Origin: Nitrospinota bacterium | GTDB taxonomy: Bacteria; Tectomicrobia; Entotheonellia; J063 | Assembly: GCA_003696125.1 (NCBI GenBank) | Contig: RFHZ01000042.1 | Span: 1 to 12,617, forward strand | DNA: 12,617 nt | Direction: 5' to 3' | Part shown: positions 8,075 to 11,590 of the stretch, piece by piece | How positions within the stretch are numbered: the stretch's first letter is position 1 | Layout of the letters: each line of letters starts with the position of its first letter | Program-made: the position numbers and the translations under genes | The notes under the pieces: model-generated | Told to the model about the DNA's origin: nothing | The model's database searches: none | Seen by the model: only the letters and a program-made list of their open reading frames with translations

Positions 8075-8752
8075 TCAGGAAGAAGGGATAACGTACACGC
8101 TCTCTGCTGCTTCTAAACCGATACTGTGCTCGGCTGTGCCGACTTGAATGAGCAAAGGGCCGTTGAAGGGGGCTTTGCCCTTTACCGTGATGTGCACATT
8201 GGGAAAGATGCCTAAACTGGCCAGATAACGCAGCATGTCAGGTTTTTCGTCTTTGACCCATACCACCACCCCTGATTGCCCGACCTCCATGGTGTGGAGA
8301 GGGGTATCGATCCCCTCTTCCAGGATACCTTCCCGGGTAGGGATGGGATGTCCATGCGGGTCAATGGTAGGATAACCCAGGGCCTCATCGATCTTCTCTT
8401 CAAACTCCTCAGAGATCACATGCTCCAGGCGGTCCGCTTCCTCATGAACCTCGTCCCAGCCGAATCCCAGGGCTTCCATCAGGTAGAGCTCTAAAAGGCG
8501 GTGATGGCGAATGACCTCGAGGGCAATCTTCTCTCCCATCGGGGTGAGTTTTACCCCTTGATAGGGCATATGCTCGACCAGCTTTAGTTCGGCCAGTTTT
8601 TTACACATGCCCGTGACCGAAGCGGGAGAGACGCGCAACCGCTCAGCAAGCGCCGCTGTATTGACCTTCCCCAGGGAGCGCTGCAGCATAAAGATCGCCT
8701 TTAGGTAGTCTTCCATGGCTGGGCTGATTACCTGTTTGTCAGGAGGGGACAA
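8075..8752 (-). CDS. DtxR/MntR-family metal-dependent transcriptional regulator, three-domain form
   Basis: A metal-sensing repressor, 225 residues from a TTG at 8752. A winged helix covers about 10-75, with recognition region VSPASVTGMCKKL (41-53). The dimerisation/metal domain is about 76-150, and a C-terminal FeoA/SH3-like domain (about 155-225) ends with the usual GTAEHSIGLEAAESVYV pattern. Aligned to DtxR the ligands are D15 (Met10), H84, E88, H103, D107 (Cys102), E110 and H111. Acidic residues at the Met10 and Cys102 positions resemble MntR D8 and E99, so manganese response is plausible. The start choice matters: the promoter at 8811-8839 would start RNA near 8804, inside the ATG at 8806. 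TTG 8752 has AGGAGAG 6 bases upstream, and GTG 8788 is a weaker option. No metal transporter lies nearby. Confidence 0.92.
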   Translation of the reverse strand: MSPPDKQVISPAMEDYLKAIFMLQRSLGKVNTAALAERLRVSPASVTGMCKKLAELKLVEHMPYQGVKLTPMGEKIALEVIRHHRLLELYLMEALGFGWDEVHEEADRLEHVISEEFEEKIDEALGYPTIDPHGHPIPTREGILEEGIDTPLHTMEVGQSGVVVWVKDEKPDMLRYLASLGIFPNVHITVKGKAPFNGPLLIQVGTAEHSIGLEAAESVYVIPSS

Positions 8753-8810
8753 GGGATTCTCTCCTCTCTCGGGGATAACAGGATCCACTTCTACTCTTCC
8801 CTTCATCTAC

Positions 8811-8839
8811 ATTGTAAGAAAAGGAAAAACGAAAGTCAA
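8811..8839 (-). promoter_or_regulatory. Promoter for the DtxR-family gene
   Basis: On the minus strand TTGACT (8839-8834), 17 bases and TACAAT (8816-8811) match consensus in 5 of 6 positions each. The -35 overlaps the stop codon region of the radical SAM gene (8836-8838). The predicted RNA start near 8804 excludes normal use of the ATG at 8806 and supports an internal start for the regulator. Confidence 0.75.
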
Positions 8840-9813
8840 CGGATCCATCGGTGGTCCAGGCGTCGCAGACCATATTTCTCTGCCAGGCGGAGGGCTTCTT
8901 GATATTCCGAGCGGGTCAGGGGACGATCCAGAGGAGGGTAACGGGAGGCACGAAAACAGGGATAGTACTGGGCCATGATGTTGACATAGGTATTGGGGGA
9001 GATCTCTTCGGCGATGAAACGCAAGACCTCCTCGGTTCCAGCCAGCCCTCCGGGCAGCACCAGGTGCCGGATCAGGAGTCCACGACGGGCAATCCCCTGG
9101 GCATCGATGACCAGATCCCCTACCTGCCGGTGCATCTCTTTGACCGCTCTGCGATTGACCGCGGGGTAGTCGCGTACCGCCGAGTACCTGCGGGCCACAC
9201 TCGCCTCCCCGTACTTCATGTCCGGCATGTAGATATCAATGACCCCATCCAGCAGGGCGAGAGCTTCGAGGCTGTCGTACCCACCGGTGTTGTAGACGAG
9301 GGGGATCTGGAGACCCGCTTGGGCGGCCAGATACACCGCCTCCAGGATCTGGGCCACTACGTGGCTGGGACTGACAAAGTTGATATTGTGACACCCGTGT
9401 TCCTGGAGTTGGAGCATCATCTGGGCGATTTCGGCTGGAGTGACCTCCTCCCCTCGTCCCTTCCAACTGATATCCCAGTTTTGACAGAAGACACAACGGA
9501 GGTTACACCAGGAGAAGAAGATGGTGCCAGACCCCCGCCAGCCTCGCAGGGGGTCCTCTTCGCCATGATGGGGACCAAAGCTATGCACCACCGCCCGCTC
9601 TCCGGTACGACAGACCGCCCCCCGTACCGTCTGCCGCCGGTTGACATGACAATAACGGGCACACAGGTCGCAATCTTCCAGGTGGCGGTACGCCTGTCTC
9701 ACCCGGTCGGCCAGTTCCCCACTGCGGAGCAGGGAACGGTAGGCCGGTTCAGGCGGGATCGATGACCCCTGGTCGAGAGGTGCCCTCTCCTCTGGTACCT
9801 GTCGCATCATCAT
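8836..9813 (-). CDS. Radical SAM protein of the PflX / pyruvate formate-lyase activase-like family
   Basis: A 325-residue radical SAM protein (COG1313-like). The cluster-binding motif CNLRCVFC gives C103, C107 and C110, preceded by GSGTIFFSW and followed by QNWDIS, a hallmark of this group. An additional cysteine set, C48, C51, C55 and C68 (CDLCARYC and GAVC), could hold a second metal centre. INFVSPSH, VYNTGGYDS, YMPDMKYG and VLPGG mark the barrel. The target of the family is not established. ATG 9813 is preferred, with GAGGGAAGG just upstream, and two more ATG codons follow directly. An in-frame GTG at 9858 overlaps the stop of the stress gene as GTGA and would add 15 residues but has no ribosome binding site. 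It is probably co-transcribed with the stress protein gene upstream. Confidence 0.92.
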   Translation of the reverse strand: MMMRQVPEERAPLDQGSSIPPEPAYRSLLRSGELADRVRQAYRHLEDCDLCARYCHVNRRQTVRGAVCRTGERAVVHSFGPHHGEEDPLRGWRGSGTIFFSWCNLRCVFCQNWDISWKGRGEEVTPAEIAQMMLQLQEHGCHNINFVSPSHVVAQILEAVYLAAQAGLQIPLVYNTGGYDSLEALALLDGVIDIYMPDMKYGEASVARRYSAVRDYPAVNRRAVKEMHRQVGDLVIDAQGIARRGLLIRHLVLPGGLAGTEEVLRFIAEEISPNTYVNIMAQYYPCFRASRYPPLDRPLTRSEYQEALRLAEKYGLRRLDHRWIR

Positions 9814-9854
9814 GCCTTCCCTCGTACCATATCCTGCCCGGGAAAGGGAAGAGA

Positions 9855-10352
9855 TCACACACAGGGCTGCGAGGCGGGACGTACCGTCAAGACCGGCACC
9901 GGTGAGTAACGGACCACACGCTCAGCAACACTGCCCATGACCAGATGGGAGAGACCGGTGCGACCGTGGGTCCCCATGATGATCATGTCTACCCCCAGTT
10001 CATAGGCCAGCCGGACGATCTCCATGGAGGGATCCCCGACTCGTACTTCGGTCTGCACCTGATCGTGGAGATTTACCGGAACGAGATCTTTCAACTTCCA
10101 CTGCGTCTCTATCCCGAAATCGCGGCGAACCTCCTGTCCACCTGCTCCCCGATAGATAAGCACATCACCGCTGTGCATGAAGAGTCCCTCTGCTGGAGAG
10201 GTCTCGGTGGCGTAAACTTCGAACGCCTTGGAGAGCACATGTAATAAGACCAGCCTGGCTCCATACCGTTGCTGGAAGAGGAGTGCATACTCCATGGTCG
10301 GTTTGGTGCATTCGGAGAAGTCGATCGGTACCAGAATTTTTTTGATTCCCAT
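9855..10352 (-). CDS. Universal stress protein (UspA family), ATP-binding type
   Basis: A 165-residue single-domain Usp. IKKILVPIDFSECT (3-16) is the typical first strand with D11. LVLLHVL is strand two, and GVDMIIMGTHGRTG leads into the ATP-binding signature G-x2-G-x9-G-S at G127, G130, G140 and S141. The middle part (about 48-90) is longer than in the shortest family members. Usp proteins bind nucleotide and help cells survive energy stress or stasis. The ATG at 10352 has GAGGAG 8 bases upstream. It heads the minus-strand block, with the radical SAM gene next. A -24/-12 type promoter lies 87 bases upstream, which would tie expression to sigma-54 and an activator. Confidence 0.95.
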   Translation of the reverse strand: MGIKKILVPIDFSECTKPTMEYALLFQQRYGARLVLLHVLSKAFEVYATETSPAEGLFMHSGDVLIYRGAGGQEVRRDFGIETQWKLKDLVPVNLHDQVQTEVRVGDPSMEIVRLAYELGVDMIIMGTHGRTGLSHLVMGSVAERVVRYSPVPVLTVRPASQPCV

Positions 10353-10407: not shown

Positions 10408-10417
10408 TGACCGGTCA
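10408..10417. promoter_or_regulatory. Perfect 10-bp palindrome in the stress gene leader
   Basis: TGACCGGTCA is its own reverse complement. It lies about 10-20 bases after the transcription start predicted from the -24/-12 element, a place where a repressor could block. No second copy is seen in the window. Confidence 0.35.
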
Positions 10418-10438
10418 TGATTCCCTACATGAAACAAG

Positions 10439-10454
10439 AGCAAATACCATGCCA
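10439..10454 (-). promoter_or_regulatory. Sigma-54-like -24/-12 promoter for the universal stress gene
   Basis: Read on the minus strand, TGGCATG (10454-10448), GTAT and TTGCT (10443-10439) match the RpoN consensus TGGCACG-N4-TTGCW at all but one position. The key GG (10453-10452) and GC (10441-10440) have the required 12-base phasing, and the base before TGG is T (pyrimidine). RNA would start near 10428, giving a 75-base leader. No good -35/-10 promoter was found for this gene. Confidence 0.6.
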
Positions 10455-10471
10455 AAAAGGAGGGGATGGAG

Positions 10472-10567
10472 ATGTTGAGCGTTGCCCGCTTTACTCCCCG
10501 CGGGCCTTTTCCGGCTTACGGGTCACTGAGACATTTTTGTTTTCCTGGGAAAAGATGTCCCAAGTGA
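10472..10567 (+). CDS. Possible 31-residue small protein
   Basis: AAAAAGGAGG ends 8 bases before the ATG at 10472, a strong ribosome binding site in a gap that otherwise has no gene. The frame runs 31 codons to TGA at 10565-10567. A second in-frame ATG at 10466 is too close to the site. The product starts MLSVARFTPRG and ends CFPGKRCPK, with two cysteines, several basic residues and no membrane segment. I recognise no family. The GC hairpin 10484-10505 lies inside it, so it could be a leader peptide. The ribosome-binding-like stretch also overlaps the upstream side of the sigma-54-like element and may be coincidence. Confidence 0.25.
   Translation: MLSVARFTPRGPFPAYGSLRHFCFPGKRCPK
10484..10510 (+). 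terminator. Terminator-like GC hairpin with a short T run
   Basis: GCCCGC (10484-10489) and GCGGGC (10500-10505) are perfect complements with a 10-base loop, followed by CTTTT (10506-10510). It reads as a weak intrinsic terminator or attenuator on the plus strand. There is no annotated gene just upstream on that strand, only the possible small ORF that contains it. Confidence 0.35.
10540..10553. promoter_or_regulatory. Inverted repeat, candidate upstream activator site
   Basis: TTTTCC and GGAAAA (10540-10545, 10548-10553) form a perfect 6-bp inverted repeat with a 2-base spacer. An outer ACAT (10531-10534) and ATGT (10555-10558) extend it imperfectly. Its centre is about 119 bases upstream of the start predicted for the stress gene, the range where activators of sigma-54 promoters bind. 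It is also some 30-40 bases before the -35 of the DUF58 promoter, so it could serve that operon instead. Confidence 0.35.
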
Positions 10568-10576
10568 AAAATACCG

Positions 10577-10605
10577 CTGTCAGCAGAGAGATTGTATGAT
10601 AAAAT
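10577..10605 (+). promoter_or_regulatory. Possible promoter for the DUF58-BatA operon
   Basis: CTGTCA (10577-10582), 17 bases and TAAAAT (10600-10605) give 4 of 6 and 5 of 6 matches. A second -10-like TATGAT sits at 10595-10600. The leader to the ATG at 10709 would be about 97 bases and shows no clear structured element. Confidence 0.45.
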
Positions 10606-10708: not shown

Positions 10709-11590
10709 ATGGGAAGAGTGCTCTTTGATTCCGAGTTCCTGAAAAAACTGGAGGTGCTCCGGCTGGTCTCCAAGCGATTCTATCGGGGACGTGCACGTGG
10801 AGAGCACCATACGGTCAAACGAGGGACCAGCCTCGAATTTTCTGATTACCGACGTTACCATGTGGGGGACGATTTCCGCTACATCGACTGGAATATCTTC
10901 AGCCGGCTGGACCAGCTTTTCCTGAAACTCTTCACCGCGGAAGAGGATCTGGTTGTCCACCTGCTCCTGGATACCAGTGCGTCGATGGGATTTGGTACCC
11001 CACCCAAAATCGACTATGCCAAGAAAGTGGCGGCCGCCCTCGGCTATATTGCCCTGGCCAATCTCGATCGGGTCGGTATTACCGCCTTTACCGATCACCT
11101 GCAGGACGCCCTCCCTCTGGTCCGGGGCAAGGATCAACTCTTTACCATCCTGCACCATTTCGAACGGATGCACCCGCAAGGAGAAACCGCATTCGGCAAG
11201 GCCTTGATGGAATATGCCTTCCGGCATAAACGCACCGGCCTGGCTATTGTTATCAGCGATCTGCTGGATCCAGAGGGAATAGAAAGAGGTCTGGAAGCGT
11301 TGCTCTTTAGCCGGTTTGATGTGGTGGTCCTCCAGATTGTCGATGAGGAAGAGATCGCTCCCCCGTTCGAAGGGGCCATCCGGCTGGTAGACGTGGAAAC
11401 GGGAAAGGAACGGCGCCTGTCCGTAGACGGACGCCTTCTGCAGCGATACCAGGAGCAACTGCGGGAGTATTTCCAGCAGATAGAGGGCTTTTGTGCCAGG
11501 CGACACATCGAATATATCCGTACCAGCACCATCTTGCCCTTTGAAGATCTCATCTTAAAATACCTGAGACAGGGATTACACGTCCGATAG
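10709..11590 (+). CDS. DUF58 domain protein with von Willebrand A-type MIDAS motif
   Basis: A 293-residue cytoplasmic protein of the DUF58 family. The family core is clear: RGTSLEFSDYRRYHVGDDF (38-56), RYIDWNIFSR (57-66), then the metal-ion-dependent adhesion site DTSASM (88-93) with D88, S90 and S92. SDLLDPEG at about 184-191 follows in the same vWA fold. There is no signal peptide or membrane span. Such proteins are usually encoded between a MoxR-type AAA+ ATPase and BatA-like membrane proteins and are thought to work with them in assembly or metal-linked maturation of periplasmic or cytoplasmic clients. The ATG at 10709 has TAGGA 6 bases upstream. The BatA-type gene follows after 11 bases, so the two are one operon. 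No MoxR gene precedes it here. Confidence 0.94.
   Translation: MGRVLFDSEFLKKLEVLRLVSKRFYRGRARGEHHTVKRGTSLEFSDYRRYHVGDDFRYIDWNIFSRLDQLFLKLFTAEEDLVVHLLLDTSASMGFGTPPKIDYAKKVAAALGYIALANLDRVGITAFTDHLQDALPLVRGKDQLFTILHHFERMHPQGETAFGKALMEYAFRHKRTGLAIVISDLLDPEGIERGLEALLFSRFDVVVLQIVDEEEIAPPFEGAIRLVDVETGKERRLSVDGRLLQRYQEQLREYFQQIEGFCARRHIEYIRTSTILPFEDLILKYLRQGLHVR

Follow-up and report, generated by a model that had tools for sequence, protein, structure and literature searches.

Introduction

Among the closest described systems is NmpR of Myxococcus xanthus, an NtrC-type regulator that activates a usp and a CBS-domain gene through paired inverted-repeat operators and sigma-54 promoters; its regulon has been linked to oxygen limitation and respiration (PMC11841059). 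GlrR (QseF) recognizes the site TGTC-N10-GACA (PMC8745638). A survey of sigma-54 regulons also reported sigma-54 promoters for Usp (UspA), GroES and Hsp20 genes across phyla (PMC12316311).

Here we analyzed a usp gene in a 12,617-nucleotide stretch of DNA (the window) from a Nitrospinota bacterium. Taken together, the loci described below resemble the NmpR system in their proposed NtrC-type logic, in paired operators upstream of sigma-54 promoters, and in targets that include usp and CBS-domain genes. The operators differ, however: NmpR uses GCGCA-N5-TGCGC with 14-15 bp between sites, whereas the element found here is GRGACA-N3-TGTCYC with a 20-21 bp period, and paired GCGCA-N5-TGCGC operators are absent from the sequence upstream of usp. 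At strong operators the 21-bp tandem period recreates TGTC-N10-GACA between neighboring sites, as in GlrR. Membership in a GlrR/QseF regulon was nevertheless rejected, since the usp copy lacks this core and the two candidate regulators score far below the curated GlrR cut-off, with AtoC the better fit. As in the survey, usp, groES and hsp20 genes have sigma-54 promoters here too. The survey sorted gene classes by promoter, whereas the operator and candidate regulators described below are lineage-specific as far as compared.

Results

Sigma-54 promoter upstream of usp

The features of the locus are as follows.

8075 to 8806, minus strand: DtxR/MntR-type metal-dependent repressor with a FeoA domain, from profile matches
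8836 to 9858, minus strand: radical SAM protein, 340 aa from the listed GTG, frame overlapping the end of usp (Pfam PF04055, 3.1e-13)
9855 to 10352, minus strand: usp, universal stress protein, 165 aa (Pfam PF00582, 1.6e-31)
10408 to 10417, no strand: palindrome TGACCGGTCA, just past the predicted start, without support as a regulatory site
10428, minus strand: predicted transcription start, placed about 12 nt past the GC by the usual sigma-54 promoter spacing
10439 to 10454, minus strand: very probable sigma-54 promoter, -24/-12 element TGGCATG-GTAT-TTGCT, one mismatch to consensus, backed by genome counts
10528 to 10542, minus strand: degenerate partner site AAACAAAAATGTCTC, offset 19, 2.4 bits, in which TGTCTC (10533-10528) is the one good half
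10540 to 10553, no strand: inverted repeat TTTTCC-TG-GGAAAA, overlapping the operator and common by chance
10547 to 10561, minus strand: probable activator operator GGGACATCTTTTCCC, centered at about -126, one mismatch to GRGACA-N3-TGTCYC, 13.8 bits

The element TGGCATGGTATTTGCT, read from 10454 to 10439 on the minus strand, is the sole exact match in the window and was found in none of 200 shuffles. It differs at one position from the consensus TGGCACG-N4-TTGCW, has GG and GC at -24 and -12 with the fixed spacing, and is separated from the usp ATG by 86 nt. Across the 4.18 Mb genome, the pattern TGGCAYN5TTGCW occurs 36 times, compared with once for the reversed control pattern. Several of these sites are inside genes, and many are close ahead of a reading frame that has a plausible ribosome-binding site; the 16-mer of the usp promoter is itself repeated ahead of other frames. 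When up to three mismatches were allowed, the window alone gave no excess, with 14 matches found and 13.8 expected, so the evidence consists of the near-perfect match together with the whole-genome counts. The RpoN-type element that the sequence-only reading placed facing the stress gene is therefore present as stated. Its companion claim, that usp lacks a good housekeeping promoter, agrees with a scan of the window using one simple consensus, which returned no sigma-70-like match facing the gene.

The genome sample comprises 4.18 Mb in 990 contigs and is 94.8% complete and 8% contaminated; C-numbers below denote contigs of this genome (G000), the source of the window. The presence of RpoN and of enhancer-binding proteins, which had been proposed as a check on the promoter, was confirmed: rpoN is encoded on C633 (PF04552, 1.4e-64), and there are 22 matches to the sigma-54 activator domain PF00158, about 20 of them strong. 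Near-consensus sigma-54 promoters also precede groES and three hsp20 genes (L129, L133, L137 and L141 on C252, C456, C616 and C692), which suggests that chaperones may be under RpoN control in the source organism. At another locus (L156, C777), two sigma-54 promoters at 1822 and 7444 on the minus strand, one of which shares the usp 16-mer, have repeated TGCAC/GTGCA elements upstream that look like sites of a different activator.

An operator family at sigma-54 promoters

Side-by-side reading of the regions upstream of all 36 sigma-54 sites revealed that one element, GRGACA-N3-TGTCYC, recurs in tandem with a period of 20-21 bp. A fixed-spacing tandem search of the genome found eight places, compared with none for the control. 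The places on C556, C831, C461, C509, C692 and C749 have no more than one mismatch, and each but C461, a contig-end copy of C509, has a sigma-54 promoter at a distance of up to about 215 bp. Single sites with one mismatch allowed show only a modest genome-wide excess (55 versus 35), so the strength of the motif lies in its tandem form and its pairing with sigma-54 promoters.

The genes that follow an operator and a sigma-54 promoter include an NtrC-type response regulator gene (C831), a second usp (C692), two radical SAM genes (C556 and C49) and a sigma-70-family factor (C509). On C749 they are a gene for a sensor kinase with CxxCH motifs and, after it, one for an NtrC-type regulator; these two sit between cytochrome and iron-sulfur oxidoreductase genes. 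The strongest operator pair precedes the C831 regulator gene, whose promoter is a single base away from the usp promoter, a pattern expected if the activator regulates its own gene. At L177:2183-2217 (C549), another strong operator, whose partner is half-degenerate as at usp, precedes 2-oxoacid:ferredoxin oxidoreductase-like genes, with no evident sigma-54 promoter at the locus.

The sigma-70-family factor gene on C509 (L176:42-1758; contig-end copy on C461, L175) encodes 451 aa and lies behind tandem operators and a sigma-54 promoter. Borrelia has an RpoN-RpoS cascade. The gene on C509 is similar in having a sigma-54 promoter, together with putative activator operators, but its product falls below both the RpoS and the RpoD model cut-offs. 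From this arrangement, a cascade from sigma-54 to a sigma-70-family factor is possible in this organism.

In a limited literature search judged by title and abstract, no description of a GRGACA-N3-TGTCYC operator was found, and a text search of a D. vulgaris sigma-54 regulome paper for GACA/TGTC returned nothing. No intergenic DNA similar to this was found in plasmids.

The candidate operator of usp

With a matrix built without usp and scored on selected contigs of the genome, GGGACATCTTTTCCC (GGGACA-N3-TTTCCC) has the best operator score in the window. It makes usp a likely member of the family, for which one criterion is a site in the 220 bp or so ahead of the promoter with no more than one mismatch, and the other a second site 20-21 bp away. 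Random sequence contains 10 matches per Mb as good as this one, giving p ~0.002 per 220 bp, a value that is somewhat favorable because the motif was recognized by eye before scoring. The best partner, at an offset of 19, scores 2.4 bits and has one good half-site. The usp operator, a good site whose partner is poor, is thus weaker than those of the other members; its position matches that at the other member promoters. Control of usp through this candidate GRGACA site is probable on the sequence evidence.

The sequence-only reading had instead assigned the activator to the inverted repeat TTTTCC/GGAAAA. Of random 146-bp stretches taken from the window, 13% contain a perfect 6+6 repeat with a spacer of 0-3, and 34% contain one with a spacer of 0-10. 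The TTTTCC/GGAAAA repeat was not seen as a shared element at other sigma-54 promoters; it overlaps GGGACA-N3-TTTCCC and is probably not itself the enhancer. The palindrome reported just past the start is indeed there, at 10408-10417, but a regulatory role for it was rejected, as 10-bp palindromes occur in about 10% of 80-bp stretches. Both elements are frequent by chance and carry no weight here.

The promoter could also be real and served by another of the approximately 20 activators, or by one acting independently of a site, with the GGGACA match arising by chance. The number of activators encoded, the weakness of the usp operator and its degenerate partner leave room for this, and TTTTCC/GGAAAA itself could then be the site, as first proposed. 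The low chance expectation for an operator in such a position, its agreement in position with the other members, and the frequency of the TTTTCC/GGAAAA repeat in random stretches argue against it, and we regard it as rather unlikely. The GRGACA operator remains our preferred assignment. Since its family is common to other sigma-54 genes, usp is a likely member of one stress/redox regulon.

Comparison with same-phylum genomes

Five genomes of the phylum were compared, the source (G000) and G001-G004. Sigma-54 sites exceed the control in G003 (37 versus 1) and G004 (36 versus 3), and weakly in G001 and G002. The operator recurs, more weakly, in two of the four other genomes, where it is over-represented upstream of sigma-54 promoters. 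Of 81 sigma-54-like promoters from the four, five have a site of at least 14 bits, compared with 0-1 in shuffles; these five represent three distinct operators, two of which are common to divergent promoters. In G004, divergent sigma-54 promoters flank one tandem operator, and CBS-Usp-Usp lies behind one of these promoters. Elsewhere in that genome a sigma-54 promoter precedes Usp-Usp and then a gene for a NirK-like copper protein fused to a cytochrome (L256 and L257; C187 and C98 of G004).

No syntenic orthologue of the window's usp was found in the other four genomes. The radical SAM protein has an orthologue in G003, which is without a usp neighbor and without a good sigma-54 site. Alignment of regions upstream of usp homologues had been suggested as a way to trace conservation of the promoter. 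Among distant homologues, 89 loci gave no excess of sigma-54 promoters, with antisense and shuffled sequences scoring equally high, and a promoter conserved ahead of usp homologues generally was rejected.

The presence of rpoN and about 20 activators, the 36 sites to one in the genome and the same excess in relatives make a strong case, and the element upstream of usp is very probably a real sigma-54 promoter. Activator-dependent expression, as originally proposed, is well supported by the same genes, the near-consensus promoter and the strong over-representation of such promoters. A chance match, with usp transcribed from a sigma-70-type or other promoter, could draw on a start at 10428 that is predicted, a sigma-70 scan with one consensus and the genome matches within genes, but it is very improbable given the genome counts, an intergenic site at the right distance and on the right strand, the same 16-mer ahead of other reading frames, and no sigma-70-like match facing usp.

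Genes downstream of usp

The overlap of their frames makes a joint usp-radical SAM transcript plausible. The true start of the radical SAM gene may be further in than the listed GTG, and the protein reached no NCBIfam cut-off. After a 29-bp gap, the DtxR/MntR-type gene is possibly part of the same transcript; a sigma-70-like match lies ahead of it at 8839-8811. On the other side of usp, the plus strand at 10577-10605 carries a sigma-70-like match, CTGTCA-17-TAAAAT, whose -10 is extended and which faces a divergent DUF58 gene at 10709.

Discussion

We propose a sigma-54 stress/redox regulon, under an NtrC-type response regulator, that takes in usp together with the radical SAM gene downstream of it. 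To this reading, drawn from sequence comparison, we give a probability of roughly 0.7. RpoN-RNA polymerase would bind TGGCATG-N4-TTGCT as a closed complex. In response to a presumed signal, an NtrC-type response regulator would bind approximately 100-130 bp upstream, at GGGACATCTTTTCCC and the weak half-site, and would reach the promoter by DNA looping, as is general for the class. ATP hydrolysis by the regulator would then open the complex, and the predicted transcript would carry usp, probably with the overlapping radical SAM gene.

The candidate activators are a regulator of the C831/C545 type and that of C749. C545 encodes a close homologue of the C831 regulator with AAA+ and Fis-type DNA-binding domains. 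C545 resembled the missing half of the C831 gene, but the overlapping ends differ in DNA, so that it is a close homologue or a second strain rather than demonstrably the same gene. The two copies (L152 on C831, L188 on C545) are near-identical and end at contig borders; their synonymous differences point to two strains, or else to close paralogues, in the bin.

The arrangement is of a known and ordinary type, found here in a bacterial lineage that has been little studied. Its analysis shows that a small repeat close to a promoter may point to the wrong site, and that comparing promoters of the same genome finds a likelier one. Tentatively, this little-known lineage might have a general sigma-54 stress/redox response in which one NtrC-type family acts on tandem GRGACA-N3-TGTCYC operators, an operator undescribed before, with Usp, radical SAM proteins, a kinase operon by respiratory genes and a sigma-70-family cascade as its targets. 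What began as a guess about one promoter is now a regulon that can be put to the test, with its operator defined and with candidate regulators and targets, in a lineage of which little is known. The work also adds evidence that, besides RpoS- or RpoH-type factors, sigma-54 controls stress proteins in bacteria other than the models.
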